Positions 555 to 18,994 of a DNA stretch of 25,872 nucleotides are shown here, one piece after another; within the stretch, counting starts at the first letter, position 1, and the number at the start of each line of letters is the position of its first letter. The position numbers and the translations under genes were made by a program. The stretch is from positions 1-25,872 of IMG/VR virus record IMGVR_UViG_3300009159_000278, one strand, 5' to 3'. This DNA comes from a virus. Under the pieces are notes generated by a model. That model was not told where the DNA came from, did no database searches, and saw nothing but the letters and a program-made list of their open reading frames with translations.

Positions 555-672
555 CGATCCGTGGTCTTGGGGAATTGTGTGGATGTGGACGGCAATCTAC
601 GCCGGGTTTGGTCTGTCTATCTGGGGCTCGCACTACGTGGCCTCGATGCTCAACGATTGGTTGGCATCATGA
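544..672 (+). CDS. Tiny Trp-rich single-span membrane protein
   Basis: A 42-residue reading frame, ATG at 544 to TGA at 670-672, overlapping rusA upstream and the gmhA-like start (ATG at 669) downstream by four bases. This overlap on both sides is the main support that it is real. The protein has six tryptophans (W7, W9, W13, W15, W27, W39) and one hydrophobic stretch from about residue 10 to 28, so it is probably a small inner-membrane protein with a charged N-terminal tip (KFNDP). Size and topology would fit a minimal holin-like or membrane-anchoring peptide, but there is no family match I recognise and no endolysin next to it. The function is therefore open. Confidence 0.6.
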   Translation: MKFNDPWSWGIVWMWTAIYAGFGLSIWGSHYVASMLNDWLAS

Positions 673-1274
673 GTGAGTTTGACGAACACCGGAGCGTTTT
701 GTTGGATACCGAGTGGATGTTGGGCCTCCAGCTTGACCCAGCAACCCAAATGCTCCTGCGCACGTTCGCGGAGGGCGGCAAGGTTCTGGCTTGCGGTAAC
801 GGCGGCAGCGCGGCGCAGGCGAGTCATCTGGTAGGTGAACTCACCATTAGGTTCATCCACGACAGGCGGGCCTTAGCGGCGGTCTCCTTGGCATCTGATG
901 CCGTGGCCCTGACTGCTGCCGGCAACGACTACGGGTTTGAACGAGCATTTAGCCGGCAAGTGGAAGCGCTGGGACAACCTGGTGATTGCTTGGTGGCGTT
1001 CAGCACAAGTGGCACCAGCAAGAATGTAAACGAAGCGCTGGCGATGGCCAGTCGAATCGGAATGCGCACGCTGGGCGTTTCTGGGCGGAAAGGTTTCACT
1101 GCTCACTGTGACGTTGACTTGATTGTGCCCAGCAGCTCGACGGCGAGGATTCAGGAGACGCACTTGTTGATCACGCATCTACTCCTGACTGGAGTAGAGA
1201 AACATCTGCCAGCGCTGCCGAACAAGCGAATGGTGGTTGATTTGGATTTGCAGGCGATGTATACGGTTCCTTAG
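669..1274 (+). CDS. gmhA: Sedoheptulose-7-phosphate isomerase (GmhA-like, SIS domain)
   Basis: A 201-residue SIS-fold protein, close to the ~192 residues of E. coli GmhA. GmhA converts sedoheptulose 7-phosphate to D-glycero-D-manno-heptose 7-phosphate, the first step toward ADP-heptose for LPS core synthesis. Visible family features: CGNGGS (residues 42-47), GNDYGFERAFSRQVEALG (85-102), STSG (112-115) and RIQETHLLITH (160-170). The metal/catalytic residues align with E. coli H61, E65, Q172 and H180 as H53, E57, Q162 and H170, all conserved, so activity is plausible. The start at 669 was chosen because it makes an ATGA overlap with the small membrane gene; the frame extends upstream to 561, but that region is better explained by the other gene. 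A related SIS protein with another sugar phosphate substrate cannot be excluded. No gmhB or hldE is in the window, so later steps would rely on the host or on genes outside it. Confidence 0.88.
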   Translation: MSEFDEHRSVLLDTEWMLGLQLDPATQMLLRTFAEGGKVLACGNGGSAAQASHLVGELTIRFIHDRRALAAVSLASDAVALTAAGNDYGFERAFSRQVEALGQPGDCLVAFSTSGTSKNVNEALAMASRIGMRTLGVSGRKGFTAHCDVDLIVPSSSTARIQETHLLITHLLLTGVEKHLPALPNKRMVVDLDLQAMYTVP

Positions 1275-1300
1275 TACTTTGTGCTCGACCTTGGGCGAAT

Positions 1301-1329
1301 CTGGGTTAGGTCGTTAATCGGGAACCCAG
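1301..1329. other. Perfect 7-bp hairpin, 15-base loop
   Basis: CTGGGTT (1301-1307) pairs perfectly with AACCCAG (1323-1329) around a 15-base loop. It begins 26 bases after the gmhA-like stop. No T-run follows, so it is not a classic intrinsic terminator. It could protect or attenuate the upstream transcript or be a protein-binding site. Confidence 0.4.
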
Positions 1330-1383
1330 TAGTCATCTCGTCGCATCGGGATGTGGATCAGACTTCCCTCTCTCCCATACCTT

Positions 1384-1398
1384 GGGGGGGTAGGGGGG
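1384..1398 (+). repeat. Paired G-runs (G7-TA-G6)
   Basis: A run of seven G, then TA, then six G, in the gap before the small basic genes. A pyrimidine-rich stretch (CCCTCTCTCCC) lies about 15 bases upstream and could pair partly with it through G-C and G-U pairs. Such a motif is rare in this otherwise mixed sequence. It may be a structural or polymerase/terminase recognition element, or an assembly-prone homopolymer. Confidence 0.35.
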
Positions 1399-1442
1399 CT
1401 GTATTCTGAACGCTCGAACATGGATCAGGGGTTAAGAGTAAT

Positions 1443-1458
1443 ATCTAGATCTAGATCT
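1443..1458. repeat. ATCTAG tandem repeat / palindrome
   Basis: The 16 bases read ATCTAGATCTAGATCT, a 6-bp unit repeated about 2.7 times that is also self-complementary (14-bp palindrome 1443-1456, 12-bp palindrome 1447-1458). It ends five bases before the GAGGA ribosome binding site of the gene at 1475, so in RNA it could fold near the start site, and in DNA it could be an operator for a dimeric regulator. Confidence 0.45.
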
Positions 1459-1474
1459 CTTTGAGGAACTCAGA

Positions 1475-1702
1475 ATGTCTATCCAGAAAAAACGGTCGGA
1501 TGGTTATCCCTGCCATCAGTGCGCACCAAGGGACTGGCGCAACGTGCCGGTTATCACTGGGGACTACGATTTCGACGCTACAATCCTGCATCGAAAGAAC
1601 CTGGACATGATTGGCCGACTTGAACTCTACGTGCGGCCAAAACGTGCGAGTTACGGGTACAAAACCTCGTATGATGCTTACGAATCTTCAGGAGATGATT
1701 GA
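1475..1702 (+). CDS. Small unknown protein with a CHQC motif
   Basis: A 75-residue protein with a well-placed GAGGA ribosome binding site (1463-1467) seven bases before the ATG. The N-terminal third contains CHQC (residues 13-16), a possible half of a metal site, but no second Cys/His pair is evident, so zinc binding is only a possibility. The rest is rich in Tyr, Asp and Arg (VITGDYDFDAT, YGYKTSYDAYES) and has no membrane segment. I do not recognise a family. It is the first gene after the non-coding gap and leads the run of small genes upstream of the terminase. Confidence 0.6.
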   Translation: MSIQKKRSDGYPCHQCAPRDWRNVPVITGDYDFDATILHRKNLDMIGRLELYVRPKRASYGYKTSYDAYESSGDD

Positions 1703-1703
1703 C

Positions 1704-1856
1704 ATGATGAAAAAAAAATCGGGCTACACGATGACGGACAAAAATGAAGGCACTTTGGCTACGAAGATGAAGGCCAAAAAAGCCGACACCTCGACCGGCG
1801 CCATGAAGAAATCCGCTAAGTACGAAAAGAGTTCGCCGAAGAAGACCCGCAGCTGA
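1704..1856 (+). CDS. Small Lys-rich protein
   Basis: A 50-residue protein beginning one base after the upstream stop, with AGGAG at 1690-1694, nine bases before the ATG at 1704 (ATG at 1707 or 1695 are alternatives; the frame itself runs open from 1611). About a quarter of the residues are lysine, in runs such as MKKKS and KMKAKKAD, and the end is SSPKKTRS. It is likely an unstructured nucleic-acid-binding peptide. It is the first of four consecutive strongly basic genes. I do not assign a family. Confidence 0.6.
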   Translation: MMKKKSGYTMTDKNEGTLATKMKAKKADTSTGAMKKSAKYEKSSPKKTRS

Positions 1857-1987
1857 TGCCGCTCAAAAAGGGTAAAAGCAAAAAAACCATCTCGGCCAAC
1901 ATCAAAACCGAGATGGCCCACGGCAAACCTCAAAAGCAGGCTGTGGCGATTGCGCTGCGCACCGCTGGTAAACCGAAGGCGAAATGA
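1856..1987 (+). CDS. Small basic phage protein, DUF6496-like
   Basis: A 43-residue protein starting at an ATG that overlaps the previous stop by one base and ending at 1985-1987, overlapping the next start. The motif KTISANIKTEMAHGKPQKQ (residues 10-28) followed by AVAIAL closely resembles the conserved core of the small DUF6496-type phage proteins, which have a (H/S)GKxQKQAxAIAL pattern. The function of that family is not established, to my knowledge. The assignment is from memory of the motif and needs a profile search. High Lys content and the position before the terminase suggest a DNA-binding or packaged accessory role, which is inference. Confidence 0.72.
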   Translation: MPLKKGKSKKTISANIKTEMAHGKPQKQAVAIALRTAGKPKAK

Positions 1988-2238
1988 TGGCTAACCTGTC
2001 CGTAGGCCGTGGCGAAAAACTTCCGACCAAGTCTGGCGCTGGCCTGACCGCGAAGGGCAGAGCGAAGATCAACCGGGAGGAAGGCAGCAACCTGAAAGCT
2101 CCGGCGCCAAACCCGAAGACCGAGAAGGATGCTGGCCGGAAGAAGAGTTTCTGCGCACGGATGCAAGGTGTCGTCGATAACGCCAAAGGTGATGCTCCAC
2201 GGGCCAAGGCCAGCCTCAAGCGATGGAACTGCAAATGA
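1984..2238 (+). CDS. Small basic phage protein, DUF6321-like
   Basis: An 84-residue protein. The start at 1984 (or ATG at 1987) overlaps the previous stop. The blocks GAGLTAKGRAKINREEGSNL (residues 18-37), RKKSFCARMQGV and the ending SLKRWNCK match the pattern of the DUF6321-type proteins common in tailed phages, which have LTAKGRAKYNR...GSNLK, KSFCARM and a C-terminal RRWNC. The conserved cysteines (C56 and C83 by count) are characteristic. The biochemical role of the family is not known to me. It lies in an operon with other small basic genes just upstream of the terminase pair. Confidence 0.75.
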   Translation: MMANLSVGRGEKLPTKSGAGLTAKGRAKINREEGSNLKAPAPNPKTEKDAGRKKSFCARMQGVVDNAKGDAPRAKASLKRWNCK

Positions 2239-2390
2239 CGAAACCTGGGCTCTATGCCAACATCAACGCGAAGAGAAAACGCATCGAGGCCGGCAGCGGT
2301 GAGAAGATGCGCAAGCCGGGAGATGCTGGGGCCCCGAAGGCCAAGGCGTTCAAGGAATCGGCAAAAGGATCGGCAAAGGCCAAAAAATGA
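2235..2390 (+). CDS. Small basic phage protein (GLYANINAKRKR motif)
   Basis: A 51-residue protein with an ATGA overlap to the gene before and to the gene after. The motif GLYANINAKRKRIEAGSGEK (residues 5-24) followed by MRKPG and APKAKAFKESAK is a recurrent small protein of podoviruses and cyanophages, often near terminase or virion genes. I recognise the motif but cannot name a function. It is too short to be enzymatic and, with lysine and arginine in clusters, is probably a nucleic-acid-associated or virion-associated peptide. Confidence 0.68.
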   Translation: MTKPGLYANINAKRKRIEAGSGEKMRKPGDAGAPKAKAFKESAKGSAKAKK

Positions 2391-2524
2391 CCATTGAAGA
2401 CATCCAGAAAATCTATCGCGAAGCGGCAGAAATCAGCCATTTAGAAGGTCTTGTGGCGGTTTTTGAGGCGGGCGCCAAGGCTCAGCGGGACGATCCCGAA
2501 ACGGCCAAAGTGTCAAACGGTTGA
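2387..2524 (+). CDS. Small acidic/helical unknown protein
   Basis: A 45-residue protein whose ATG overlaps the upstream TGA (ATGA, 2387-2390). Unlike its neighbours it is not basic: it is mainly a predicted helix (IEDIQKIYREAAEISHLEGL, residues 3-22) with a polar tail. No family is recognised. The overlap and the clean fit between the basic cluster and the terminase small subunit are the reasons for calling it. Confidence 0.5.
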   Translation: MTIEDIQKIYREAAEISHLEGLVAVFEAGAKAQRDDPETAKVSNG

Positions 2525-2536
2525 CGTTAGTATCAG

Positions 2537-2866
2537 ATGGCAGGAAAAGGCGCACCAAAGGGTAACGATTTCGCAGCACGTGGAGCACGCGTCAGACAGT
2601 CGTTGGAGCGAGCACTAGCAAGGCTAGGTGGCACGGTAGACAAGGGTCTTGACCGGGTGGCCGACCAGATAGTCGGGCTGGCCGTTGAAGGCGAACAGTG
2701 GGCCTGCACGATGATTGCCGACCGACTTGACGGCAAACCCCACACTACGATTGAAATGGCAGTGACAGACGAGAGGCCAACAGCACTTAATGCAGAGCAA
2801 CTCGCAGACAAACTCGCAGGCGCTCTCGCAGGTCGAGCACCAGTTACAGAGCGCAGCATTCAGTAG
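2537..2866 (+). CDS. terS: Putative terminase small subunit
   Basis: A 109-residue basic, helical protein directly upstream of and overlapping the large terminase gene by 77 bases. The start MAGKGAPKGNDFAARGAR and the block MIADRLDGKPHTTIEMAV resemble the N-terminal GNP..R and ADRLDGKP patterns of a group of small phage packaging proteins. TerS proteins form rings that recognise the packaging site and load the large subunit on DNA. The assignment is mainly by position and motif; no helix-turn-helix could be drawn with confidence. The 3' end contains the 12-bp repeats at 2801-2831. Confidence 0.6.
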   Translation: MAGKGAPKGNDFAARGARVRQSLERALARLGGTVDKGLDRVADQIVGLAVEGEQWACTMIADRLDGKPHTTIEMAVTDERPTALNAEQLADKLAGALAGRAPVTERSIQ

Positions 2867-4418
2867 CCTGCTGGCCGTCTGGGACGCACTGGATGGCAAA
2901 GGCCAAGACCACGCGGCGATGCGCTGGCTGGCCACCGTTGACCGTTACTATCTCCTGGTCAAACTCCTTGGCCGCACTGACGTCTGGCACCCGTGGCTGT
3001 ATGACCGCTGCCGGGAGGTCGAGCAGCGACCAGACAACCACCTTGACCTCTGGGCGCGGGAGCACTACAAGTCCACGATCATCACGTTCGCGGGCATCAT
3101 CCAAGAGATTTTGAAGAAACCCGAAATCACCATCGGGTTGTTCTCCCACACCAAGCCAATCAGCAAAGCATTCCTCGCCCAAATAAAACGAGAGTTTGAA
3201 GGTAACGAACTGCTCAAGACGCTGTTCCCTGATGTTCTTTGGAGCAACCCACAGAAAGAGGCGCCGGTCTGGAGTCTCGACGCTGGCATCGTGGTCAAGC
3301 GGCAAGGCAATCCCAAAGAAGCCACCATTGAGGCCCACGGATTGGTGGACGGCCAGCCGACATCTCGCCACTTCTCGCTGCGGGTGTACGACGACGTGGT
3401 CACGCTTGAGTCGGTCAGCACGCCGGAGCAAATCAACAAAACCACCGAGGCGTGGTCGATGAGCGACAACTTGGGCACTGCCGGTGGTCGCTGGTGGCAC
3501 ATCGGCACTCGATACAACTTCGCCGACACTTATGCGCACATCATGGGCACAGGCATCAAGCCGAGAATCCACCCAGCCACGCACGACGGCACCAAGGACG
3601 GCAGGCCGGTGCTGTTCTCAGAAGAGGAATGGGAACGGCGTCTGCGCACGCAGCTGGAAGCCACCATTGCGTGCCAGATGTTGCAGAACCCGCTGGCCGG
3701 GACTCAGCGCTGGTTCAACCCGGATGACCTCCAGACCTACGAAGCACGGCCCGAAACGCTGATGTGTTACCTCATGGTTGACCCGGCCCGCAGCAAGAAG
3801 AAAGGCTCGGCCAACACGGCGATGGCCGTCATCGGCATTGACTTCCAAGGCAACAAATATCTGCTCGATGGCTACGACCACAAAATGGATTTGCTGGAGC
3901 GCTGGACGCACATGCGAGACCTCTGGCGCAAATGGCGTGTCGCTCCCGGCGTCATAGGCATCAAGGTCGGTTATGAGCGTTTCGGTGCGATTGCCGACAT
4001 GGACTATTTCGAGGAACGCATCCGCACGGAGAACGTCCAAGGACTGAGCATTGACCCGCTAGAGTGGCCGCACGACTCGCCGGGTTCAAAGGACGACCGA
4101 GTGCAGCGCCTGTTGCCCGACATCAGGAATCACGCGTTCCATCTTCCGAGAGAGCCGGGAGACGACGAGCCAGACATGAGTCCCCAGCAGCAGCGGATGA
4201 TTGCCCAGGGCTACGATTACCGGGTGGCGAGGCCTATCGTGTACCGGGACGAGAACGGTCAGCTGTACAACCTCAGTGAGCGTTTCAAGATGCAAGTGGC
4301 GTATTATCCGTTCTGCGGGCTCAAGGACTTGATCGACGCTGTGTCAAGAATCTACGACATGGATCCTCGGGCGCCTGAATACATTGATTCTGACATCATG
4401 GAACCGGAGTACAGCTAG
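2790..4418 (+). CDS. terL: Terminase large subunit
   Basis: A 542-residue protein with the two-part layout of phage packaging motors. The N-terminal ATPase has a deviant Walker A, WAREHYKST (residues 88-96, K94), and a Walker B, LRVYDDVV (D201-D202). The C-terminal nuclease has its first acidic residue in MVDPARSKKKG (D331) and a further acidic region around YERFGAIADMDYFEE. It hydrolyses ATP to pump DNA into the prohead and cuts the concatemer. The start at 2790 lies inside the small-subunit gene; the first 17 residues are Ser/Gln-rich and encoded by the 12-bp repeat. The ribosome binding site is weak (GAGAGG, 13 bases away), suggesting coupling to the upstream gene. The glycine-free Walker A is like that of several podovirus terminases. 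Confidence 0.93.
   Translation: MQSNSQTNSQALSQVEHQLQSAAFSSLLAVWDALDGKGQDHAAMRWLATVDRYYLLVKLLGRTDVWHPWLYDRCREVEQRPDNHLDLWAREHYKSTIITFAGIIQEILKKPEITIGLFSHTKPISKAFLAQIKREFEGNELLKTLFPDVLWSNPQKEAPVWSLDAGIVVKRQGNPKEATIEAHGLVDGQPTSRHFSLRVYDDVVTLESVSTPEQINKTTEAWSMSDNLGTAGGRWWHIGTRYNFADTYAHIMGTGIKPRIHPATHDGTKDGRPVLFSEEEWERRLRTQLEATIACQMLQNPLAGTQRWFNPDDLQTYEARPETLMCYLMVDPARSKKKGSANTAMAVIGIDFQGNKYLLDGYDHKMDLLERWTHMRDLWRKWRVAPGVIGIKVGYERFGAIADMDYFEERIRTENVQGLSIDPLEWPHDSPGSKDDRVQRLLPDIRNHAFHLPREPGDDEPDMSPQQQRMIAQGYDYRVARPIVYRDENGQLYNLSERFKMQVAYYPFCGLKDLIDAVSRIYDMDPRAPEYIDSDIMEPEYS
2801..2831 (+). repeat. Three CTCGCAG repeats at 12-bp spacing (candidate pac element)
   Basis: CTCGCAG occurs at 2801-2807, 2813-2819 and 2825-2831, exactly 12 bases apart, inside the stretch shared by the small and large terminase genes. 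In one frame it encodes LADKLAGALAG, in the other NSQTNSQALSQ. In P22-type phages the pac site lies within the small terminase gene, and iterated sites there are plausible TerS binding targets. This is position-based inference; the spacing could also simply reflect a heptad-like helix in the small subunit. Confidence 0.45.
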
Positions 4419-4419
4419 C

Positions 4420-6267
4420 ATGGCTCAACAGACGATCAACGTAGGCACTGTGGCCGGCGACAACACCGGAGATCCTGGGAGAACTGCGTTTCAGAAGGTC
4501 AACAGCAACTTCAACGAACTGTATGCAGCCAACACCTACGCGCAGACAACGAACGTCAAGGCCTATGGCGCAAAGGGAGACGGGATCACTGACGATACAA
4601 GCGCCATTCAAACTGCCATCACCTCAAATCCGGGACGGACAATTTTCTTCCCAGCTGGCAAATATCTAATTACGAGCACAATCAGCATCACATCTCCGGC
4701 CACGGTTCTTGAGGGAGAGTCTAGCGGTCTTGAATATGTCACCGCCGGCAGCGGAGGTGCAGTGATTGTCTGTAACACCGCAACCGACGCGGTCTATTTC
4801 AACAACACCGCCGCGCCAACTGGTGCCTTGCAAGGCTGTGGCATGAAAAACCTGTCGATTGCCCGAACGGTGCATGTGGCAACTGGTTCTGGTTTGAAGT
4901 TGCGCGACACCGCGAACTTCTCTGCTGAAAACATTGGTGTAAGTGAGTTTTTCATCTGCATTGACATGGTGGACGCTCAGAGCAGCACGTTTAGAAATGT
5001 GCGCCTTTACACCGGGAATGCGTTCACCGGCGCGACCAACAGCACGATGGTGAGCATCACCGGTTTGTATCCGCTGGTCAGCAGTTCCGACGCGGGCTGG
5101 ATCAATTCGTTTGATCAATTTCTCATCACGTCAAACAGAATCACCGACCACGGGTTTAGAGTTCAAAGCATCGACGACCTGCGAATTTCCAATGGGTACG
5201 TTGGCTGGATGAAGAACAACGGGGCGCTGATTGAACTACAGGACGCAACAGCCCCGCTGTATTCAATCAATTTTGAACAGGTGTACATCGACGGCGTAAA
5301 AACTGACGGCACGCAAACGCCAATCGGCATTTGGGTTAAAAACAACGGAGTGTCGCCATCCGGGTCTACGCCTGCCATTTTCGATATGAAATTGACTGGC
5401 TGCACGTTCGGCCAGCTGACCAACGCACTCTACATTGACCAGCCCAGCGTGGCGGCCATCACGGTTGAGAACTGCGAGTTCCACAACACTGAGCAAACAG
5501 CGGTTTACATTGGCGTGACCACGGGCGCCTATGTGTTTTCTGGGTGTTCGTTCTACAAGGTCGGGTACAACTTCGCGGCGACCACCTATTCAGGTATCAA
5601 GTGCGACGGCTCATACAGCACGACCATCGCGAACTGCTCGTTCAATAACTTGTTCGATACCACTCGCGTGATTGCGTTTGTCGGAACTCAATTCAACATC
5701 GTCATCACCAACAATTCGTTTGTGGGCGTGGGAACTTACGCATTCACGCCGCTCTACACGACAGGCGCCACCATCTCGCGCCTCGTGTATGGCAACAACA
5801 ACAGCAACGGAACTGACCTCGGTATTTTTGGGCTGCGCGTCGCTAACCAAAACAATACCGACACTAATGCGTTGGATTGGTATGAGGAGGGCACCTGGAC
5901 GCCAGCGCTTGCATTTGGCGGCGGTTCGACGGGCATGACTTATTCAACCAGAACCGGGCGGTATACCCGAATCGGAAACCGCGTTTTCACCGAAGCATAT
6001 TTTCAGCTGTCTGCAAAAGGCAGCTCGACCGGCGTCGCCACAATCACCGGGATGCCATTTGCGTCAGACACAGCAGTGAGCCAAGCATTCGCAATTCGTC
6101 CGGGCAACATGGCGGCGACCATTGGCGACACTCACCTCGTCGCTGCATTCAGCAACAGCACCACCATCCGAATCGACAGGATGTCAGGGGGCAGCCCGAC
6201 GCAGCTGGCCGATACAGATTTTAACGCCACGTCCTATGTGGCCATTTCCGCGAATTACAAAGTATGA
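4420..6267 (+). CDS. Tailspike / tail fibre with pectate-lyase-type beta-helix
   Basis: A 615-residue protein. The start at 4420, two bases after the terminase stop, was preferred over an in-frame ATG at 4384 inside terL. Residues 5-36 carry the phage tail-fibre motif NVGTVAGDNTGDPGRTAF then KVNSNFNELY, a short virion-attachment type N-terminus. From residue 46, VKAYGAKGDGITDD starts a right-handed beta-helix of the Pectate_lyase_3 type, with many short Thr/Ser/Asn/Gly rungs up to about 490. The C-terminal ~130 residues (TWTPALAFGGGSTGM, RTGRYTRIGNRVFTEAYF) look like a tail-tip carbohydrate-binding or trimerisation module. Such proteins bind and often degrade host surface polysaccharide. No catalytic residue can be assigned by eye. 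Confidence 0.85.
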   Translation: MAQQTINVGTVAGDNTGDPGRTAFQKVNSNFNELYAANTYAQTTNVKAYGAKGDGITDDTSAIQTAITSNPGRTIFFPAGKYLITSTISITSPATVLEGESSGLEYVTAGSGGAVIVCNTATDAVYFNNTAAPTGALQGCGMKNLSIARTVHVATGSGLKLRDTANFSAENIGVSEFFICIDMVDAQSSTFRNVRLYTGNAFTGATNSTMVSITGLYPLVSSSDAGWINSFDQFLITSNRITDHGFRVQSIDDLRISNGYVGWMKNNGALIELQDATAPLYSINFEQVYIDGVKTDGTQTPIGIWVKNNGVSPSGSTPAIFDMKLTGCTFGQLTNALYIDQPSVAAITVENCEFHNTEQTAVYIGVTTGAYVFSGCSFYKVGYNFAATTYSGIKCDGSYSTTIANCSFNNLFDTTRVIAFVGTQFNIVITNNSFVGVGTYAFTPLYTTGATISRLVYGNNNSNGTDLGIFGLRVANQNNTDTNALDWYEEGTWTPALAFGGGSTGMTYSTRTGRYTRIGNRVFTEAYFQLSAKGSSTGVATITGMPFASDTAVSQAFAIRPGNMAATIGDTHLVAAFSNSTTIRIDRMSGGSPTQLADTDFNATSYVAISANYKV

Positions 6268-6297
6268 CGATGCGGGCAGTCTCAAGAGCGGTGACAC

Positions 6298-6669
6298 ATG
6301 GCGTATAGCAACGCATGGCAGAACAATTTGGCGTTCACCGCCGACAGCGTTTTGATCAACGCCAGCGGTTCGCCAGGTTATGTCACCAGCCCCAGCACGC
6401 CATCGTCCGGCGGCACCTATGCGCAGTGGTCTGCTGATGGGTACTACTCCCTGTATCTGTATCCTCCGGCAAATCAGGTGCGCGGAGTCCCTGCCGATTT
6501 GGGTTTGCCAGTCACCACGCGTCAATTCAGCTGGAACGAAATGGTGAGGCGTGCGTGGGGCAGCGAGTTTTCGGCACCAGACCGCCGGGTTTACGAGTTC
6601 TCAAATGGCCGAGGCTTCGACAGCACCGACCGGGGCGACACCGGATTTTACGAACCACCGAGCACCTAA
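6298..6669 (+). CDS. Unknown protein, probably virion-associated
   Basis: A 123-residue protein, 30 bases after the tailspike stop. It is rich in Ser, Tyr and Pro with aromatic clusters (YYSLYLYPP) and shows no membrane segment. The C-terminal half (RRVYEFSNGRGFDSTDRGDTGFYEPPST) is charged and Gly-rich. I do not recognise a family. Placed between the tailspike and the portal, it may be a chaperone or a minor tail part, without direct evidence. Confidence 0.6.
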   Translation: MAYSNAWQNNLAFTADSVLINASGSPGYVTSPSTPSSGGTYAQWSADGYYSLYLYPPANQVRGVPADLGLPVTTRQFSWNEMVRRAWGSEFSAPDRRVYEFSNGRGFDSTDRGDTGFYEPPST

Positions 6670-6670
6670 T

Positions 6671-7030
6671 ATGCACATCATGGAACACGGCGACCCGGAA
6701 GAGCGCAGTCAGATGGAACTGGCCCTTGAGGTCGGAAAGGCGCTGAACCAGCATTATCCCAATCATCCGTGGATTGTTGGATTTCAAGGCGGAGGCATCG
6801 TTGTTCGCCATCTGTTGATTGCCGGCGCCGTGGCTGAGGAACTGGGCCGGGAAGGTTTCGCATCACTTCTGCCACGCAACAAGCTGGGCACGCAAAAGGA
6901 AATCCAGCGGTCTGCGGTCGAATTCGGCGGGCAGCTGCTGGAAGCGTTCGGTCTCAAGCGTGGCGCATGGACTGGTGAGCCTGCCATCGTTCCGGCGTCG
7001 TGGCGTTATCGACAGGAGAGTTTCAGATGA
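6671..7030 (+). CDS. Conserved-looking unknown protein upstream of portal
   Basis: A 119-residue protein with ATG at 6671 immediately after the upstream stop; its own stop overlaps the portal start (ATGA, 7027-7030). The sequence alternates acidic helices (EERSQMELALEVGKALNQHY) with a Gly-rich turn (WIVGFQGGGIVVRHLL). Similar proteins with a LALEVGKAL..HYP..PW pattern occur next to portals in marine podoviruses, as I recall, without a known role. The tight coupling to the portal gene suggests it acts in head assembly. Confidence 0.62.
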   Translation: MHIMEHGDPEERSQMELALEVGKALNQHYPNHPWIVGFQGGGIVVRHLLIAGAVAEELGREGFASLLPRNKLGTQKEIQRSAVEFGGQLLEAFGLKRGAWTGEPAIVPASWRYRQESFR

Positions 7031-9201: not shown

Positions 9202-9479
9202 GGCACCTCGACCCATCCGACCCGGTGGTGAGCTCAGCGGTGTTTGGCAAACAGGTTGAAGCGTTCCTGACCAGCGACCTTGGCACCTACCTTATCCGTA
9301 AATCAGAGGAGGAGGAGGCGCTGGCCGCAGAGCGTTTGATTGTTGGGGCGCACACCATGTCGATAAAAGACATCCTCGCCGAGCAGGCGACGATAACGAG
9401 GGCACGGACTTTCCGTGATTGGCTTGCGTACGCCGTGCAGGACGGTTTGCAGGCTTTGGAGATGTTGGAGAGCGAATAA
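9198..9479 (+). CDS. Small unknown protein between portal and scaffold
   Basis: A 93-residue, largely helical, acidic protein. Its ATG overlaps the portal stop by four bases and its TAA shares a base with the scaffold ATG (TAATG, 9477-9481). A Glu/Ala run (RKSEEEEALAAERL) and an amphipathic C-terminal helix (AVQDGLQALEMLESE) suggest a small assembly partner. No family is recognised. The operon position supports a role in procapsid assembly. Confidence 0.62.
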   Translation: MRHLDPSDPVVSSAVFGKQVEAFLTSDLGTYLIRKSEEEEALAAERLIVGAHTMSIKDILAEQATITRARTFRDWLAYAVQDGLQALEMLESE

Positions 9480-10414
9480 TGACCGACGAAGAAGCGAAAC
9501 GAGAGCAGGAAGCGAAAGCGGCGAACGACCAGCGCAACAACGAGCGATTGGAGCGGCTCAACGCTATTGCCAACCAGAATGACGAGAGCGGCGAATTCGA
9601 CGACGTCGAAGACGAGGCGTGGGACGACCAGACGCCGGCAGCAGACGTCCCGGACGCTGAGCCGGAGGAGGTTGCCGAGGCCCGCAGTCACGGCGCTGAC
9701 GATGTGCGCGAGACCAACGGCGAGACGTATTACCGGATTATCGTCAACGGGCAAGAGCGCTGGCTGACGTTGGCGCAATTGCGTGAGACGTCGTCGAAAG
9801 TTACTGCCGCTGACGAATACTTGCGCAATGCCAAGCAGGCCATGCACAATGTCACCGGGGCTCCATCCACGGACGAGCCTCAAAGCCGGGAGACCGGCGT
9901 CCGCGACATGCTCACGCGGGCCTTGATGGGTGAGCAGGAAGCCATAGATGAGTTGGCACGGAGACTTGAACGGACACCATCCCAAACGGACGTGCTCCGC
10001 TCTGTGGACGAACGCATTGATGGTCGGTTGACGTTTCGGCAGGCAGTCGATTGGTTTGAGACTGAGTACGCCGACACGCTGAAGATTGAGCCGGTACGTG
10101 CGAGAGCCGTACAGGTAGATGCAGAGTTAGCGGCCCAGAATCCCGACATGGATTTCAAGGCCAGACTGAAGATGGTCGGCGATGACGCCAGAACCTATCT
10201 CCAGCAGCTCCGCAGCCAACTTGGTGTTGTCGCGCAGGAATCAGGCAGGAGCCAGAAGGAAGCCCGAAAAGCGTCAGTTCGCAGTTTGCCAGTTGCCGGA
10301 GGTCGGCAATCGGACGGCGGCGAAGAAGGAGACGACGAGACCTACGAGACGACCATTTCCAAAATGGCGCAGTCACGGGGTCAGGGTCGGCCGATCATTC
10401 ATAAACGTTCGTAA
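9479..10414 (+). CDS. Probable scaffolding protein
   Basis: A 311-residue, highly charged protein located between the portal and major capsid, the place of gene 8 in P22. The first ~80 residues are strongly acidic (DDVEDEAWDD, DAEPEEVAEA) with a preceding KR/E-rich helix, then a folded-looking segment (TYYRIIVNGQERWLTLAQLR), long helices through the middle, and a basic tail ending RGQGRPIIHKRS. Basic C-terminal tails bind coat protein in P22-like scaffolds. The start at 9479 was selected for the TAATG junction; the longer frame from 9419 would overlap the upstream gene. There is no direct motif for the fold, so the call is by position and composition. It is about the same size as the P22 scaffold (303). 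Confidence 0.7.
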   Translation: MTDEEAKREQEAKAANDQRNNERLERLNAIANQNDESGEFDDVEDEAWDDQTPAADVPDAEPEEVAEARSHGADDVRETNGETYYRIIVNGQERWLTLAQLRETSSKVTAADEYLRNAKQAMHNVTGAPSTDEPQSRETGVRDMLTRALMGEQEAIDELARRLERTPSQTDVLRSVDERIDGRLTFRQAVDWFETEYADTLKIEPVRARAVQVDAELAAQNPDMDFKARLKMVGDDARTYLQQLRSQLGVVAQESGRSQKEARKASVRSLPVAGGRQSDGGEEGDDETYETTISKMAQSRGQGRPIIHKRS

Positions 10415-10420
10415 AGGAGG
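10414..10420 (+). promoter_or_regulatory. Strong Shine-Dalgarno of the capsid gene
   Basis: AAGGAGG, near-perfect complement to the 16S rRNA 3' end, sits five bases before the capsid ATG and starts on the last base of the scaffold stop codon. It is the strongest ribosome binding site in the window, as expected for the most abundant virion protein. Confidence 0.8.
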
Positions 10421-10425
10421 CCAAA

Positions 10426-11397
10426 ATGGCTGGTCAAGTCTGGGCTGTAAACTCGCTGGGTGGCTTCATGTATAGCCGCCAGCTTTCCAACGTGCTGCGT
10501 GCCAACGTGCAGCCGCTCGTCAAATTCCGTCAGTTCGCCGACGTCCATGACATCAGTCAGCAGGGCAAGAAGAAAGGCGATTTGTTCACGTGGGACGTGT
10601 TTTCTGACGTGGCCACTCCGGGCGTGGTGCTCACCGAAACGAACACGATGCCGGAAACTAACTTCACGATTGTCCAGGGCACTCTGACGATCACCGAGGC
10701 CGGCAACTCCATTCCGTACAGCGGCAAGCTCGACAACCTGTCGAAGTTCCCGATCGAAGACGTTATTAAAAAGGTCTTGAAGAACGACTGCGTCAAGTGG
10801 CTTGACCGTTCTGCTTGGACTCAGTTCAACCAGACCCTGTTGCGTGTTGTGCCCACTGCCGGCACGTCCACCACGGCGGTCACGCTGACCACCAACGGCA
10901 CTGCGACGCTGACCAACTCGGTGGCGCTGAACAACAGCCACGTGAAGGCGATTGTTGACACGATGAAGGAACGCAACATTCCGGCCTACATCGCTGACGA
11001 CTACTACAGCCTTGCTTGGCCGACCACGCTACGCACGCTCAAGAACAACCTCGAGGTCATCCACCAGTACAGCGACACCGGCTTTGCGCTTATCATGAAC
11101 GGCGAAATTGGCCGCTACGAGAACGTCCGGTTCATTGAGCAGACCAACGTGGCCAAGGGCACTGGCACTGACGGTATCACCACGACTGCGTGGTCGGTCG
11201 GCGCGTCCGACTGGTGTTTCTTCTTTGGCAACGACACGGTGGCCGAAGCGATTGCTGTGCCCGAAGAAATGCGCGGGAAGATTCCGACCGACTACGGTAG
11301 GTCAAAAGGCATCGCGTGGTACTACCTCGGCGGTTTTGGCATCGTCCACACTCTCGCTACGAACGCTCGTATCGTGAAGTGGGATTCGGCGGCTTAA
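10426..11397 (+). CDS. Major capsid protein (N4 gp56-like type)
   Basis: A 323-residue protein with the strongest ribosome binding site in the window. Between residues 60 and 125, TNTMPETNFTIVQGTLTITE and then NSIPYSGKLDNLSKFPIEDV followed by IKKVLKNDCVKWLDR resemble the spine-helix region of the N4-gp56/phage major capsid type with an HK97-like fold. The middle (VDTMKERNIPAYIADDYYS) and the end (GIVHTLATNARIVKW) are also in keeping with that group. It forms the icosahedral head. It follows the probable scaffold and is followed by small virion-type genes. The family name is from motif memory; the role itself is firm from position and composition. Confidence 0.85.
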   Translation: MAGQVWAVNSLGGFMYSRQLSNVLRANVQPLVKFRQFADVHDISQQGKKKGDLFTWDVFSDVATPGVVLTETNTMPETNFTIVQGTLTITEAGNSIPYSGKLDNLSKFPIEDVIKKVLKNDCVKWLDRSAWTQFNQTLLRVVPTAGTSTTAVTLTTNGTATLTNSVALNNSHVKAIVDTMKERNIPAYIADDYYSLAWPTTLRTLKNNLEVIHQYSDTGFALIMNGEIGRYENVRFIEQTNVAKGTGTDGITTTAWSVGASDWCFFFGNDTVAEAIAVPEEMRGKIPTDYGRSKGIAWYYLGGFGIVHTLATNARIVKWDSAA

Positions 11398-11409
11398 GGA
11401 GCAATAGAC

Positions 11410-11952
11410 ATGGCACTTAACAACACCCAAACCAACTTTGGTTACGATCACCCGGCCTATCTGGCCCGTGGTACATGGAGCGCCACGATTGCCGCTGGTG
11501 CGTCTGGGACGGCCAAGTTTGTGGCGCACGCCAACTTGCAGCTGATGGCTGTCAACGTTGCGTTGACCGCTGCTGGAACGTCTACGTACACGCGCACGCA
11601 GTTCTACAACAATGGCACCAATAGCATCACCGTTCATGCGAATAACAACCAGTACACGGTCACGCGTGTGACCAATACTGCGGCGTCCGGTGCGGCGGCA
11701 TCGTTCTCCACTTCCACGCTGGCCATTTTCTCTCCTGACATTTATTCGACGGTAAACGCCGGCACCAGCACTGGTGTGGTGGGTTCGTGGTTCGGCCAAG
11801 CACTGAACTCAAGCACCGGCACCGCCGGTCTGTTCGGTGTTGCGATCAACCAGGGCGATGTCATCACCATCACCGGCGGTACGGATGCCACGGCGGCGTC
11901 TGTCCTGTCGTTTGACTGGGCGGTTCAGCCTCTCGCTAACGTGATTGCTTAA
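11410..11952 (+). CDS. Probable head decoration or minor virion protein
   Basis: A 180-residue Thr/Ser/Ala/Gly-rich protein with no charged helices and many alternating beta-type stretches (STYTRTQFYNNGTNSITVH, QGDVITITGGTD), typical of an Ig-like or jelly-roll beta protein. AAGGAG at 11396-11401 gives a good ribosome binding site eight bases before the ATG. Placed directly after the capsid gene, it may be a surface decoration or head fibre protein. No specific family could be assigned. Confidence 0.65.
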   Translation: MALNNTQTNFGYDHPAYLARGTWSATIAAGASGTAKFVAHANLQLMAVNVALTAAGTSTYTRTQFYNNGTNSITVHANNNQYTVTRVTNTAASGAAASFSTSTLAIFSPDIYSTVNAGTSTGVVGSWFGQALNSSTGTAGLFGVAINQGDVITITGGTDATAASVLSFDWAVQPLANVIA

Positions 11953-11964
11953 GGAGTAATCGTC

Positions 11965-12447
11965 ATGCCTAAATTGAACCAGCAAGGGCGGAAGATGTAC
12001 GAAACGCCGCAGGTTGATGCTAAAGCGTATAGCACCAAGATGTATGGAGACATGGCGCCTAACATGGAAGACGTCATTAAGTCCGCGAACGCTCGTGGGC
12101 AGTCTCGCCATGAGTTGAAGAACACGGAAGTGGCTGACGTTGACAACCTCCCGGAGAGCGCACGGATGGTGCGCAACGAGATGGTGGGCGTTAAGCAGAA
12201 CGGGTATCTGGTCAAGAAGAATCTTGAGTTCGGCGTCAACGCGTTTTACAACACGCTGCCTCCGGGGATGGATATTGAAGATCAGGAACTTAACGACATC
12301 CGAGAGATGAAGATGGTTGCCTACGAAGGCGGTTTGAGTTTCCCCGGCGATGGTTGGACTGACCGCGCCGAGGGTTCGCAGATGCCGGACACGTTGGACA
12401 TGGGGCGACCCGAAATGACCAACAAGCGCGGCACTTCGAAAATCTAA
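11965..12447 (+). CDS. Unknown protein A with the LPPGMDIEDQE motif
   Basis: A 160-residue, polar, Met-rich protein with AAGGAG at 11951-11956. Its distinctive part is FYNTLPPGMDIEDQELNDIR (residues about 94-113), nearly repeated in the next gene. N-terminal to this is a Lys/Glu-rich helix-like region, C-terminal a short Gly/Pro stretch and an end NKRGTSKI. It shows no membrane segment and no recognised domain. As the second gene after the capsid, and paralogous in part with its neighbour, it could be an internal or minor capsid component or an assembly chaperone. Confidence 0.6.
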   Translation: MPKLNQQGRKMYETPQVDAKAYSTKMYGDMAPNMEDVIKSANARGQSRHELKNTEVADVDNLPESARMVRNEMVGVKQNGYLVKKNLEFGVNAFYNTLPPGMDIEDQELNDIREMKMVAYEGGLSFPGDGWTDRAEGSQMPDTLDMGRPEMTNKRGTSKI

Positions 12448-12462
12448 GCGGAGCACCCAGCC

Positions 12463-12906
12463 ATGCCGAAAGTCGTTCAAGAAAAGTTTCAAGTCACGTT
12501 AAGTGAAGACTCCAAAGACGAGGGACAGTATGGTTGGGTGACTGATACTGAGATGCGGGCCAAGAAGGGCAACTCCGGTCGAGAAGGCAAAGCCGGTGGC
12601 GACCATGCGTCGCGTGTGATCAATAATGCGATGTTTGTTAATAGTTTGCCGCCGGGGATGGACATCGAAGACCAGGAGTTTGCCGACATCCGCCAGATGG
12701 GAATCAACACCTCTGGCAACATGACCAATGCTTTGGCGCAGGGTGATGTCACAAACTTTGAGGTGACCGCCGATTCGTTGCGCAAAGGCTTTGACAAGAA
12801 AGCGCTGCTGCAAACCGACGACGAATACACCCGCGAACACAACGACGCTTTTTACGACGACGTGGGCGGTTTCGTTGAGCGCAACAATTACCTCGACAGG
12901 TTGTAA
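12463..12906 (+). CDS. Unknown protein B with the LPPGMDIEDQE motif
   Basis: A 147-residue, acidic, polar protein, 15 bases after protein A. Residues about 59-79 read FVNSLPPGMDIEDQEFADIR, 14 of the 17 positions starting at the N of NSLPPG identical to protein A's block. The surroundings differ: an N-terminal DE-rich segment (VTLSEDSKDEGQYGWVTDTE) and a charged C-terminal region (DDEYTREHNDAFYDDVGG). It shows no known domain. The shared motif suggests that A and B bind the same partner or each other. No Shine-Dalgarno better than GCGGAGC is seen. Confidence 0.6.
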   Translation: MPKVVQEKFQVTLSEDSKDEGQYGWVTDTEMRAKKGNSGREGKAGGDHASRVINNAMFVNSLPPGMDIEDQEFADIRQMGINTSGNMTNALAQGDVTNFEVTADSLRKGFDKKALLQTDDEYTREHNDAFYDDVGGFVERNNYLDRL

Positions 12907-12909
12907 GCC

Positions 12910-13287
12910 ATGCCAGTTACTCCGCCAAGCAACATGATGCCGCTGGGCATCTGCAACATCGACCCGACCACTGGCAACGTGTATTCGATGGGCTGCGCGA
13001 ATTATTACGTGATCAGCACGGCGGGCACGACAACCATTAAAAACGGTGGTGGCGTTTACTACGGAATCAACTGCATCAGCACTGGAACCACATGGACGCT
13101 GACCCCGTATGACATTGTAGTGGCGGGCACCACGACGACCACCAACACGTTGCACGCGACGCAGACGGCAGCCAACAACGGATTCCAAGCGAACCCCGGC
13201 CCTGGCGGTACTGGCGTTGCATTTCTCGGCGCTCTTACCATTGTCACTACCGGCACGCCGGGACTGTGGAACGTCTTATGGGATTAA
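12910..13287 (+). CDS. Small Thr/Gly-rich unknown protein
   Basis: A 125-residue protein starting three bases after protein B. It is Thr/Gly/Asn-rich (STAGTTTIKNGGGVYYG, VVAGTTTTTNTLHATQTA) with no charged clusters, so a secreted-type beta structure or a virion surface protein is likely. Three cysteines lie near residues 15, 29 and 56. No family is recognised. It may be a second decoration protein like the one at 11410, but there is no clear similarity. Confidence 0.55.
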   Translation: MPVTPPSNMMPLGICNIDPTTGNVYSMGCANYYVISTAGTTTIKNGGGVYYGINCISTGTTWTLTPYDIVVAGTTTTTNTLHATQTAANNGFQANPGPGGTGVAFLGALTIVTTGTPGLWNVLWD

Positions 13288-13460
13288 AGTTTGACCCAGA
13301 CCAGCCGCACGGCGTCATCTACTCTGGCGGCACCTACGAAGGCCGTTACGAGCAGAATGGCGTTGTGTTCAAGGCGAACGGTGAACCACTTGACTCACCG
13401 GTTGACACATCACTTGACTCATTGCCAGACGCACCACCAGAGCGTCGCAAGCGTTCTTGA
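13278..13460 (+). CDS. Small unknown protein preceding the terminator
   Basis: A 60-residue protein. The start at 13278 is chosen so that only 10 bases overlap the upstream gene; an ATG at 13266 is also in frame. The N-terminal half, FDPDQPHGVIYSGGTYEG then RYEQNGVVFKANGEPL, resembles a short phage protein of the form F(D/N)P..PHGV.YGG....YEQ.G..F. The tail is acidic then basic (SLPDAPPERRKRS). The function is unknown. Its stop is 31 bases before the intrinsic terminator, so it ends the capsid transcription unit. Confidence 0.58.
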   Translation: MGLKFDPDQPHGVIYSGGTYEGRYEQNGVVFKANGEPLDSPVDTSLDSLPDAPPERRKRS

Positions 13461-13491
13461 ACTCCTCCAGAGCCCTCCAAGCTCCCCCTCC

Positions 13492-13518
13492 GCCCCGGTC
13501 GTCCGGGGCTCTTTTTTT
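13492..13518 (+). terminator. Rho-independent terminator
   Basis: GCCCCGG (13492-13498), loop TCGT, CCGGGGC (13503-13509), then TC and seven T (13512-13518). This is a textbook GC-rich hairpin with a U-tract. It lies between the capsid-region genes and the methyltransferase/glycosyltransferase gene and probably reduces, rather than abolishes, read-through into the downstream tail genes. Confidence 0.88.
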
Positions 13519-13554
13519 GTATCATGGACGGATTCAAAGAACGAGGAATGAGCA

Positions 13555-15222
13555 ATGGTTTGGAGAGCAGAAGACCCGCAGGGGAATGAGTCAGGGAAAA
13601 TCGTCTGGGAATTGCCACGCTGGACGCGGGGCCGAGTCCTCGATGTCGGCTGCGGGCCTAACAAAGGATTTCCACATTTCATAGGCTTGGACTCCGGCGT
13701 TGACACGCAGCTATTTGGCATTCAGATGAAGCCGGACATCTGGATTGAGGACGCCAGCAATCTGGCCCTGTTCGGTTCCGAAGCGTACGACGCTGTCTAC
13801 TCATCGCATCTCCTTGAACACATCGCGCCGGAAAAGGTCGAGGAGACTTTGCGCGAATGGTGGCGGGTGTTGAAGGTCGGCGGCTATCTGGTGCTTTATC
13901 TGCCACACGAAGACCTGTATCCCAAAGTGGGACAACCTAACGCGAACCCAGACCACAAGTGGGACGTGAACGAGCAGCGCCTATTGGCGTACATGCGACC
14001 CGTTGGCTCGTGGGATTGCCGGGTTCTTGAGCAGCGCAACGAAGGCATGGAGTACAGCCTGTTTGCAGTGTTTGAAAAGATACCCGAGCCAGAACGCTCC
14101 ACAAAGGCCAACAAGGCGTTCCAGTGGCGCTACAGCCACCAGAAGCCACGGCCAGAGAAGACAGCCGCTGTGGTGCGCTACGGGGCATATGGCGACATCC
14201 TGCAAGCCTCCAGCGTGTTTGCCGGTCTGAAAAAGCAGGGCTACCACGTCACGGTCTTTTGCTCGCCACCGGGCAGTGATGTGATCAAGCACGACCCCAA
14301 CATTGATGACTTCTACTATCAGGACGTCAACCAAGTGCCGAATGAGCACCTCGGTGCGTTCTGGGGCCATCACCGGAAGAAGTTCGACAAGTGGGTTCAG
14401 TTAAGCGAAAGCGCGGAAGGTACGCTTCTGCCGATTCCTGGGCGGTTCATGTACGAGGCGCCGCCTGCGGTTCGCCACAAGATGTGCAACCAGAACTATC
14501 TAGAATTCCAGCACGATTGTGCCAAGGTTGAGCACAAGCCAGCCGTAAAGTTTTTTGCGCTACCAGAAGAAACTTTATGGGCCAAAAAACAGCGCGAGGA
14601 GATGGGCAAGTTCGTTATTGTCTGGGCGCTGGCCGGGTCATCGGTGCATAAAACGTGGCCGCACATTGATACCGTTTTTGCGAGGCTGTTGATCGACTTT
14701 CCGGAGGTTCACATTGTATTGGTAGGCTCTGAGGCCGGGACAATCCTCGAGCAAGGGTGGTTCATTCCTGATGAGCAGACCGGACGCCCAAAACGCATCA
14801 AGGGAAGGAAAATTAAAACCGAGCCACGCATCTGGCCGATGTGCGGAGAGTGGAAAATCCGTGAGACTTTGGCCTTTACCTTGCTGGCCGACATGGTCAT
14901 CGGGCCAGAAACCGGCGTTCTCAACTCAGTCTCGCATGAGCCCATGCCAAAGGTTGTTTTCCTGAGCCACAGCAGCGCGGAAAACCTCACCAGAGACTGG
15001 GACAACGCCACACCGCTGATGGCAGCGAACACGCACTGTCCGGGCCGTGGAGCCAACGAAGCGCCGGCCTGTCATCAGCTGCATTACAACTGGAGCAACT
15101 GTCAGCAGGCCAAAGACGCTGACGGAAACGACATGGGCGTGGCCCAGTGTCAGGCTGAAATCACTGCCGACATGGCATACGATGCGATATATCCGACAAT
15201 CAAAAAGGCGCTTAAAAGATGA
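13555..15222 (+). CDS. Fused SAM methyltransferase - GT9 heptosyltransferase-like protein
   Basis: A 555-residue two-domain enzyme with GAGGA at 13543-13547. Residues 1-175 form a class I methyltransferase: VLDVGCGP (28-35), acidic D46 after IGLD, YDAVYSSHLLEHI (78-90), and WWRVLKVGGYLVLYLP (102-117). Residues ~200-555 resemble GT9 (WaaC/WaaF-type) glycosyltransferases, which move heptose from ADP-heptose to LPS: RYGAYGDILQASSV (208-221), WALAGSSVHKTWPH (357-370), and ADMVIGPETGVLNSVSH (445-461). The usual GT9 DTGxxH is changed to ETGVLN. The end holds four Cys (495, 506, 516, 532) with a CHQLHY block, possibly a metal site. Its stop overlaps the gp4-like start (ATGA). The acceptor is unknown: LPS, virion protein or DNA are all possible. 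A fusion of these two activities is unusual in my knowledge; the methyltransferase could finish the transferred sugar. Confidence 0.82.
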   Translation: MVWRAEDPQGNESGKIVWELPRWTRGRVLDVGCGPNKGFPHFIGLDSGVDTQLFGIQMKPDIWIEDASNLALFGSEAYDAVYSSHLLEHIAPEKVEETLREWWRVLKVGGYLVLYLPHEDLYPKVGQPNANPDHKWDVNEQRLLAYMRPVGSWDCRVLEQRNEGMEYSLFAVFEKIPEPERSTKANKAFQWRYSHQKPRPEKTAAVVRYGAYGDILQASSVFAGLKKQGYHVTVFCSPPGSDVIKHDPNIDDFYYQDVNQVPNEHLGAFWGHHRKKFDKWVQLSESAEGTLLPIPGRFMYEAPPAVRHKMCNQNYLEFQHDCAKVEHKPAVKFFALPEETLWAKKQREEMGKFVIVWALAGSSVHKTWPHIDTVFARLLIDFPEVHIVLVGSEAGTILEQGWFIPDEQTGRPKRIKGRKIKTEPRIWPMCGEWKIRETLAFTLLADMVIGPETGVLNSVSHEPMPKVVFLSHSSAENLTRDWDNATPLMAANTHCPGRGANEAPACHQLHYNWSNCQQAKDADGNDMGVAQCQAEITADMAYDAIYPTIKKALKR

Positions 15223-16202
15223 GCACCAGCGGCACGTACGCATTCACGGTTACTCGAGACGACATCGTTAGGGAAGCGATGTTAAACATCGGCAGACTTG
15301 ATGCGTACGGCACCATCGATGCGCAGGAAACCACCGACTGTTCGCGCAAGCTGAACATGCTGGTTAAACAGTGGATGGGCCGCTACGACTTTGCTCCGGG
15401 TCTCAAAATCTGGACGCGTCAGCGCGGGGATTTGTTCCTGTCGTCCAGCCAGTACCGTTACAACCTCGGCCCATCTGGAGACAACTGGGCGGCAGGCGTC
15501 ACGGCGGTTCCCGGCGCCAACTACGCAACAAATCAGACCAGTGCGTATGCAGCTGCTGCCGCAACGAGTCTCTCGTTCGCCAGCACCAGCCAATTCACTG
15601 CCGGCGACTATGTTGTCATCCAGCTGTCCACTGGCGACATTCAGAGCACCACGGTGGCCAGCAAGACATCGACGAGCATTTCGTTGAATGCGGCGCTCAC
15701 CGCTGCCGTGAACCAAGGTGCTTACGTGTGGAACTACACCACCAAGGGGCAACGCCCGCTGGAGATTGTCACGGCGGTTCTAAGAGACCCCAACGCATCG
15801 GATACACCGTTGGATTTTATGACGGTGCAGACTTATGAGCAGTTGCCGACAAAGACGAGTAGCAATTATCTGAGCGATCCAACGGCCATCTATTACGAGG
15901 CCCAACTGACCAACGGCCAGTTGTACATCGACTGCGGCGGTGCGCAGGACGTCACGAAGGTGATTCACATCGTCTACCTGCGTCCAATTCAGGATTTCAA
16001 CGCAGCGCTAGATAACCCGGAATATCCAGCCGAGTGGTTCAACGCGTTGTGCTGGGGATTGAGCAAGCAGATTTGCCCGATGTTCAGCGCAGTGTGGACG
16101 CCTGAGATGGATGCGAACTACACCGAAGCGCTGGCCTACGCTCGCGAGGCAAACCCGGACACGACTGAAGTCTATTTCCTGTCGAATCAGTTCATGCCAT
16201 GA
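15219..16202 (+). CDS. Head-completion / tail accessory protein, P22 gp4-like
   Basis: A 327-residue protein beginning with an ATGA overlap. The N-terminal helix region (ARDDIVREAMLNIGRL-like: VTRDDIVREAMLNIG) and C-terminal NPEYPAEWFNALCWGLSKQI are typical of the gp4/tail accessory factor type adaptor that sits under the portal. P22 gp4 is only about 166 residues; this one is longer because residues ~80-175 hold an inserted Thr/Ser/Ala-rich beta domain (SAYAAAAATSLSFAS, FTAGDYVVIQLSTGDI), of a kind seen in related phage adaptors. The following gene is gp10-like, which fits P22 order. Confidence 0.78.
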   Translation: MSTSGTYAFTVTRDDIVREAMLNIGRLDAYGTIDAQETTDCSRKLNMLVKQWMGRYDFAPGLKIWTRQRGDLFLSSSQYRYNLGPSGDNWAAGVTAVPGANYATNQTSAYAAAAATSLSFASTSQFTAGDYVVIQLSTGDIQSTTVASKTSTSISLNAALTAAVNQGAYVWNYTTKGQRPLEIVTAVLRDPNASDTPLDFMTVQTYEQLPTKTSSNYLSDPTAIYYEAQLTNGQLYIDCGGAQDVTKVIHIVYLRPIQDFNAALDNPEYPAEWFNALCWGLSKQICPMFSAVWTPEMDANYTEALAYAREANPDTTEVYFLSNQFMP

Positions 16203-18984: not shown

Positions 18985-18994
18985 TGGAGGACTG

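Follow-up and report, generated by a model that had tools for sequence, protein, structure and literature searches.

In this work we have examined two genes on a linear viral record of 25,872 bases, IMG/VR record IMGVR_UViG_3300009159_000278 (the window, taken at its full length), which spans a fragment of a tailed phage. One is a gmhA-like isomerase gene near its start, the other a gene of the capsid region encoding a methyltransferase fused to a GT9-type glycosyltransferase (MTase-GT9). Comparison with related contigs showed the isomerase gene to be what is left of an ADP-heptose gene set (gmhA, hldE1, hldE2 and sometimes gmhB) that related phages carry upstream of the terminase genes. MTase-GT9 belongs to the core of these phages, while the heptose genes are accessory and patchy. 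With most or all of the ADP-heptose pathway encoded by close relatives, it is probable that phages of this group join heptose to some acceptor, which may be their own particle. The contigs compared are metagenomic, and all functions are deduced from sequences, predicted structures and the arrangement of the genes. The phage markers of the window are an SU10-type portal, a PHROG 1357-type major head protein and a weak match to a T7-type terminase.

ADP-heptose is the precursor of the inner core of lipopolysaccharide (LPS), and phage genes for its synthesis are usually read as LPS tailoring. Here, in a widespread group of phages, the head-neck block has a GT9-class glycosyltransferase as a conserved member, and the sugar supply has been gained and lost around it. 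If the particle is the acceptor, the outcome would be a heptosylated virion, for which prophages of Paraburkholderia or Aromatoleum isolates would allow a direct test.

The ADP-heptose locus at the terminase end

The locus comprises the following features, all on the + strand:
669 (ATG)..1274 (stop), +: gmhA-like gene, sedoheptulose-7-phosphate isomerase, 201 aa, with H53/E57/Q162/H170 intact
1275..1474, +: gap between gmhA and the 75-aa gene, where relatives hold hldE1 (kinase) and hldE2 (adenylyltransferase)
1475..1702, +: conserved 75-aa gene (PCHQCAPRDWRNVPVITGDYDFDATI...), an anchor of the locus, placed after the heptose genes in relatives
2537-2866, +: terS, downstream anchor of the locus
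2790-4418, +: terL, downstream anchor of the locus

A preliminary description of the window had proposed an intact GmhA-like isomerase, and the four residues on which it relied are where it placed them, H53, E57, Q162 and H170 aligning with the catalytic and metal residues H61, E65, Q172 and H180 of E. coli GmhA. They are invariant among the close phage homologues. The protein matches Pfam SIS_2 (E 2e-20) and the GmhA models (E ~1e-50), yet it stays under their curated cut-offs (167 bits against 209 for NCBIfam TIGR00441) and is thus a divergent member. Among solved structures, Campylobacter GmhA (1tk9, E 6e-46) is the closest in sequence. The ratios of nonsynonymous to synonymous substitution (dN/dS, NG86) are low, 0.03-0.12 for gmhA and 0.05-0.08 for the fusion, so both genes are maintained by purifying selection. 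From its sequence, the window protein very likely has GmhA activity. Could it instead be a replication initiator factor of the DiaA kind? The fold family is shared, the DiaA model matches (E 4e-29) and the gene lies near rusA, but the GmhA models outscore the DiaA model by far. Where GmhA has the Glu and the second His, at the second and fourth catalytic positions, E. coli DiaA carries S62 and N180, and every phage homologue of the clade retains the Glu and His that DiaA has lost. We have rejected DiaA as the identity of this protein, whose catalytic Glu and His are both present, and such a role is hardly credible.

In relatives (L030/G009, L131, L135, L126/G044 and others) the order is gmhA, hldE1, hldE2, the 75-aa gene and then terS/terL. 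Their hldE1 products, of the HldE-kinase type, match TIGR02198 with E-values up to 2e-71, and their hldE2 products, of the HldE-adenylyltransferase type, match TIGR02199 with E 2e-21 to 7e-25. SPEAP, GG-NV and GAGD are retained in the kinases, apart from small changes in G056 and G048, and HxGH is retained in the adenylyltransferases. None of the phage heptose-pathway members tested reached the curated NCBIfam cut-offs. Kinase, adenylyltransferase and isomerase genes occur together in G008, G009, G025, G044 and G056; the window has gmhA only, and L119 has gmhA and the kinase only. G048 carries hldE1-hldE2-gmhB upstream of terL (GmhB E 8e-32). All four steps are encoded by G056, in which overlapping genes for the kinase, GmhA, the adenylyltransferase and GmhB lie on the opposite strand beyond the endolysin gene. 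In the close relative L028, an unrelated open reading frame (ORF) is found between gmhA and the 75-aa gene.

The GmhAs of this phage group form one clade apart from the host GmhAs, and the heptose gene set therefore belongs to these phages. G056 stands at the base of the clade, and this topology fits an early acquisition followed by repeated loss. The window lineage has retained gmhA alone and would therefore need host GmhB and HldE.

Nearly all relatives have the 75-aa gene, placed after the accessory sugar genes and before terS. A small cupin-like gene stands beside the heptose kinase gene in L189 (G048, 17241-17600), L186 (G029, 16756-17079) and L198 (G045, 18429-18842); it weakly resembles sugar isomerase/epimerase cupins, and its product might act on a heptose intermediate. 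A second gene, glycosyltransferase-like by eye (382-415 aa), stands in the heptose locus, ahead of the terminase genes, in L186 (G029, 17064-18212) and L195 (G031, 10160-11407), the G031 locus holding it together with a methyltransferase-like gene and without heptose genes. Sugar genes seem to have a hot spot in the heptose locus.

The methyltransferase-GT9 fusion in the capsid-neck block

The fusion and its surroundings in the window are as follows:
10426..11397, +: major capsid protein gene, in relatives the upstream anchor of the MTase-GT9 gene
13555..15222, +: MTase-GT9 fusion ORF, 555 aa
13555..14127, +: N-terminal class I S-adenosylmethionine-dependent methyltransferase domain (~190 residues), motif VLDVGCG, with D30, G32, G34 and D46 invariant
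14149..15222, +: C-terminal GT9-type GT-B glycosyltransferase domain, with D214 at the base position, H365-K366 of GSSVHKTWP, and invariant GPETG 450-454
15037..15150, +: four-cysteine cluster near the C-terminus, C495, C506, C516 and C532
15219-16202, +: neck gene, directly 3' of MTase-GT9, the two overlapping by ATGA
16199-17623, +: head-closure Hc3 gene, downstream of the neck gene

That the fusion carries a GT9-type domain, as had been suggested beforehand, was borne out by homologues, profiles and folds together. Pfam PF01075 (Glyco_transf_9) gave no match to the window protein at E<=1, and weak matches in 4 of 16 fusion homologues (best 2e-4); in the wider family, 7 of 14 glycosyltransferase domains matched, the best at 7e-8. 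A profile of 16 phage members aligned by hhalign with WaaF/WaaC of E. coli together with GT9 proteins from host genomes, with a probability of 97.7 (P 2e-12), over 307 columns which cover both lobes. An AlphaFold2 model of the fusion (mean pLDDT 78) had as its top Foldseek matches in the PDB the GT9 structure 3tov, WaaF (1psw), WaaC (6dfe/2h1h) and TibC (4rap/4rb4), and for a model of a stand-alone GT9 relative (mean pLDDT 81) 3tov and 1psw were again at the top. D214 takes the position of the catalytic Asp (GD motif) and K366 that of the Lys of K-x-WP; both are invariant and align with WaaF. We are thus highly confident that the C-terminal domain is a GT9-type transferase. The four C-terminal cysteines are invariant among the fusions, their common spacing in the wider family being CxxC-x9-C-xn-C; in the window lineage 8 residues are inserted within the first pair.

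The N-terminal domain is matched by Methyltransf_11 at residues 61-114 of the fusion (E 3e-9) and has a dN/dS of 0.043, compared with 0.095 for the glycosyltransferase domain. Two distant relatives, L229 and L230, have a stand-alone GT9 without the methyltransferase at the same place, and GT9 is therefore the constant part of the gene. The initial suggestion that the sugar or its acceptor is methylated as well is for the same reason kept as a possibility only, since GT9 also occurs without a methyltransferase.

We found the fusion in at least 594 viral-contig loci, with hundreds of uncultured phages among its carriers; a direct sequence search of 50,697 phage records gave no match. Among some 20 long contigs, every copy is placed a few genes past the major capsid gene, with the neck gene directly after it wherever one was detected. 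The same capsid-fusion-neck arrangement is present in contigs of bacterial genomes, including those of isolates of Paraburkholderia, Aromatoleum and Pseudothauera, and MTase-GT9 prophages occur in Gram-negative bacteria. This position is the one expected of a late enzyme of the virion module.

Donor, acceptor and the weight of the evidence

Are the two genes functionally connected? All 26 viral gmhA loci that reach 57% identity are placed immediately ahead of the terminase genes of this group, wherever terL is on the contig, and gmhA of the window lineage occurs only in phages of this type. Conversely, at least one ADP-heptose gene is present in 13 of 29 other MTase-GT9 contigs, which were picked through the fusion gene and not through gmhA; many of those without heptose genes are fragments, and because the contigs are mutually related the 13 do not stand for independent events. 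Across phage records in general, gmhA matches are found in 11 of 50,697 and hldE1 matches in 28 of 50,697, some of them evident bacterial sequence. Co-occurrence, which the preliminary description had proposed as a check, is thus real, but gmhA and MTase-GT9 are not an obligate pair, since the latter is core and several long contigs lack the accessory heptose genes. The idea that host GmhB and HldE could bridge the steps between the two enzymes fits what we found: hldE1 and hldE2, sometimes with gmhB, stand at the same locus in relatives, and the prophage hosts own HldE. HldE2 is present in 9 of 10 host genomes with MTase-GT9 matches, the HldE2 matches lying on contigs other than the prophages, and no phage-borne hldE2 was evident in genomes holding MTase-GT9 prophages. 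On these comparisons the gmhA-GT9 link is better supported than the sequence of the window alone had shown.

The following mechanism can be proposed. The GmhA step, the entry to heptose synthesis, draws on sedoheptulose-7-phosphate of the pentose-phosphate pathway, so that a boost to GmhA could by itself enlarge the pool. Host HldE and GmhB, phage-encoded in relatives, would convert the GmhA product into ADP-heptose, phage genes adding one to four steps in many members and the entry step only in the window; phages without heptose genes would rely on the ADP-heptose pool of the host. The GT9 domain, made late together with the capsid and neck proteins, would then move heptose onto an acceptor, for which a virion protein is the likeliest candidate; methylation of the sugar or the acceptor would fall to the methyltransferase domain. 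We regard the chances of this overall scheme, a virion-module GT9 using host ADP-heptose supplemented by phage genes, as evenly balanced. Taken singly, ADP-heptose is rather probably the GT9 donor, as the hldE, gmhA and gmhB genes of relatives suggest, and a virion protein is tentatively put forward as the acceptor from the position of the gene.

Several observations weigh against this scheme. We searched for remnants of hldE1 and hldE2 between gmhA and the 75-aa gene of the window and found none. Most of the phage HldE1 proteins are about 60 residues short of E. coli HldE, and the long contigs G013, G014, G031 and G052 keep MTase-GT9 without any heptose gene. The usual DTG sugar-site motif of GT9 proteins is GPETG in all phage members, and because ETG replaces DTG throughout the family the donor may differ from ADP-heptose. 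In G029 and G031, the glycosyltransferase-like genes of the heptose locus could be the real heptose users. It may be, then, that there is no functional link at all, GmhA being a remnant or a metabolic accessory and the core GT9 using another sugar nucleotide. The lone gmhA of the window lineage, the long contigs without heptose genes and the ETG motif would all accord with this; however, the dN/dS of gmhA speaks against decay, and heptose genes, rare across phages generally, are nevertheless carried by nearly half of the MTase-GT9 contigs. We consider the absence of a link improbable.

If heptose is transferred, what receives it? Perhaps GT9 puts heptose on the LPS core of an infected or lysogenic cell, so that superinfection is blocked or the receptor altered, with the heptose genes feeding LPS synthesis. 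The nearest GT9 structures, WaaF and WaaC, act on LPS, the prophages are present in Gram-negative hosts, and LPS genes of other phage genomes have been interpreted in this way by their authors, as in the case of rfaE in pelagimyophages (PMC7029224). Against this, the gene is within the capsid-neck block in every relative, a late-expressed core position unusual for lysogenic-conversion genes, and TibC, which is a protein heptosyltransferase, equals WaaC in fold closeness. Modification of the host surface, the principal rival reading, is unlikely in our view, and a virion protein is favoured over LPS as the acceptor.

The preliminary description had also offered DNA modification; heptose would then be joined to a modified base of the phage DNA. 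This option lost ground, as the usual precursor enzymes are lacking outside one relative, G056. There the heptose genes adjoin a thymidylate-synthase-like gene, a 5-hydroxymethyldeoxyuridine (5-hmdU) DNA kinase-type gene (HMUDK_hel, E 7e-34) and one further gene, which by eye is glycosyltransferase-like (L183 12195-18501, corresponding to contig 52195-58501). A heptose-containing DNA hypermodification is possible in this one phage and would be a different, equally testable use of the same heptose genes. As a general role we disfavour it, the thymidylate-synthase family being present in only 1 of 28 contigs and without a member in the window, and outside G056 a DNA acceptor is very unlikely. 

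In its widest form, the virion scheme would mean that temperate phages of Gram-negative bacteria, forming a large clade with hardly any cultured members, decorate their own virion proteins with heptose, perhaps methylated, by a core capsid-linked GT9, and that many of them carry ADP-heptose synthesis genes to feed it. This reading is speculative and rather doubtful.

Related systems and neighbouring genes

Heptose gene sets annotated in cyanophages are already known, and gmhA has been described as a familiar phage auxiliary gene (PMC9238414). We found no paper describing a capsid-linked MTase-GT9 with a phage ADP-heptose supply; as far as the searched literature shows, what is new is a core capsid-linked GT9, mostly methyltransferase-fused, combined with ADP-heptose supply genes that vary at the terminase end of the same genomes. 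Cyanophage S-CAM1 has an annotated phage-borne set of heptose kinase, adenylyltransferase and phosphoheptose isomerase, but it is a T4-like cyanomyovirus whose set lies beside tail-fibre and carbamoyltransferase genes and whose kinase is only about 33% identical, whereas here the set is upstream of the terminase genes in phages with the core GT9. Compared with the ADP-heptose pathway of Gram-negative bacteria (GmhA, HldE, GmhB), all four steps are encoded within the phage group and the catalytic motifs are retained, but the relatives split HldE into two genes, with the mostly shorter kinase mentioned above. WaaF and WaaC resemble the phage GT9 in fold, position of the catalytic Asp, K-x-WP motif and domain order; they differ in sequence (~10-14% identity), and the phage protein has ETG for DTG, the additional four-Cys cluster, the fused methyltransferase and the capsid-gene neighbourhood.

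In TibC, four conserved cysteines near the C-terminus (C339, C342, C358 and C370) bind iron (PMC4358343). TibC/BAHT proteins share the GT9-type fold with the phage protein, and their cysteines are possible counterparts of its four-Cys cluster, but they have an N-terminal beta-barrel where the latter has the methyltransferase domain or nothing. We have not used the cluster as proof of TibC-type protein heptosylation, because its spacing differs and it may be general in GT9. Similar four-Cys clusters seem to exist in ordinary GT9 proteins too.

Glycosylation of capsids was reported for mycobacteriophages Che8 and Rita (Freeman 2023, as cited in PMC11256854). These phages encode glycosyltransferases whose products decorate the virion, a modification which here we only infer; their hosts are actinobacterial, and the glycosyltransferase genes of this type are placed near the 3' genome end (Maravista), not beside the capsid gene.

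Further along the window, at 18977-19989, an aspartyl/asparaginyl beta-hydroxylase-type gene is followed by a GNAT acetyltransferase gene, a pair kept in several relatives, and its products are possible further modifiers of virion proteins. A gene for a PurD-like ATP-grasp enzyme, cut by the window end (24759-25872), is kept in most relatives with 45-97% identity.

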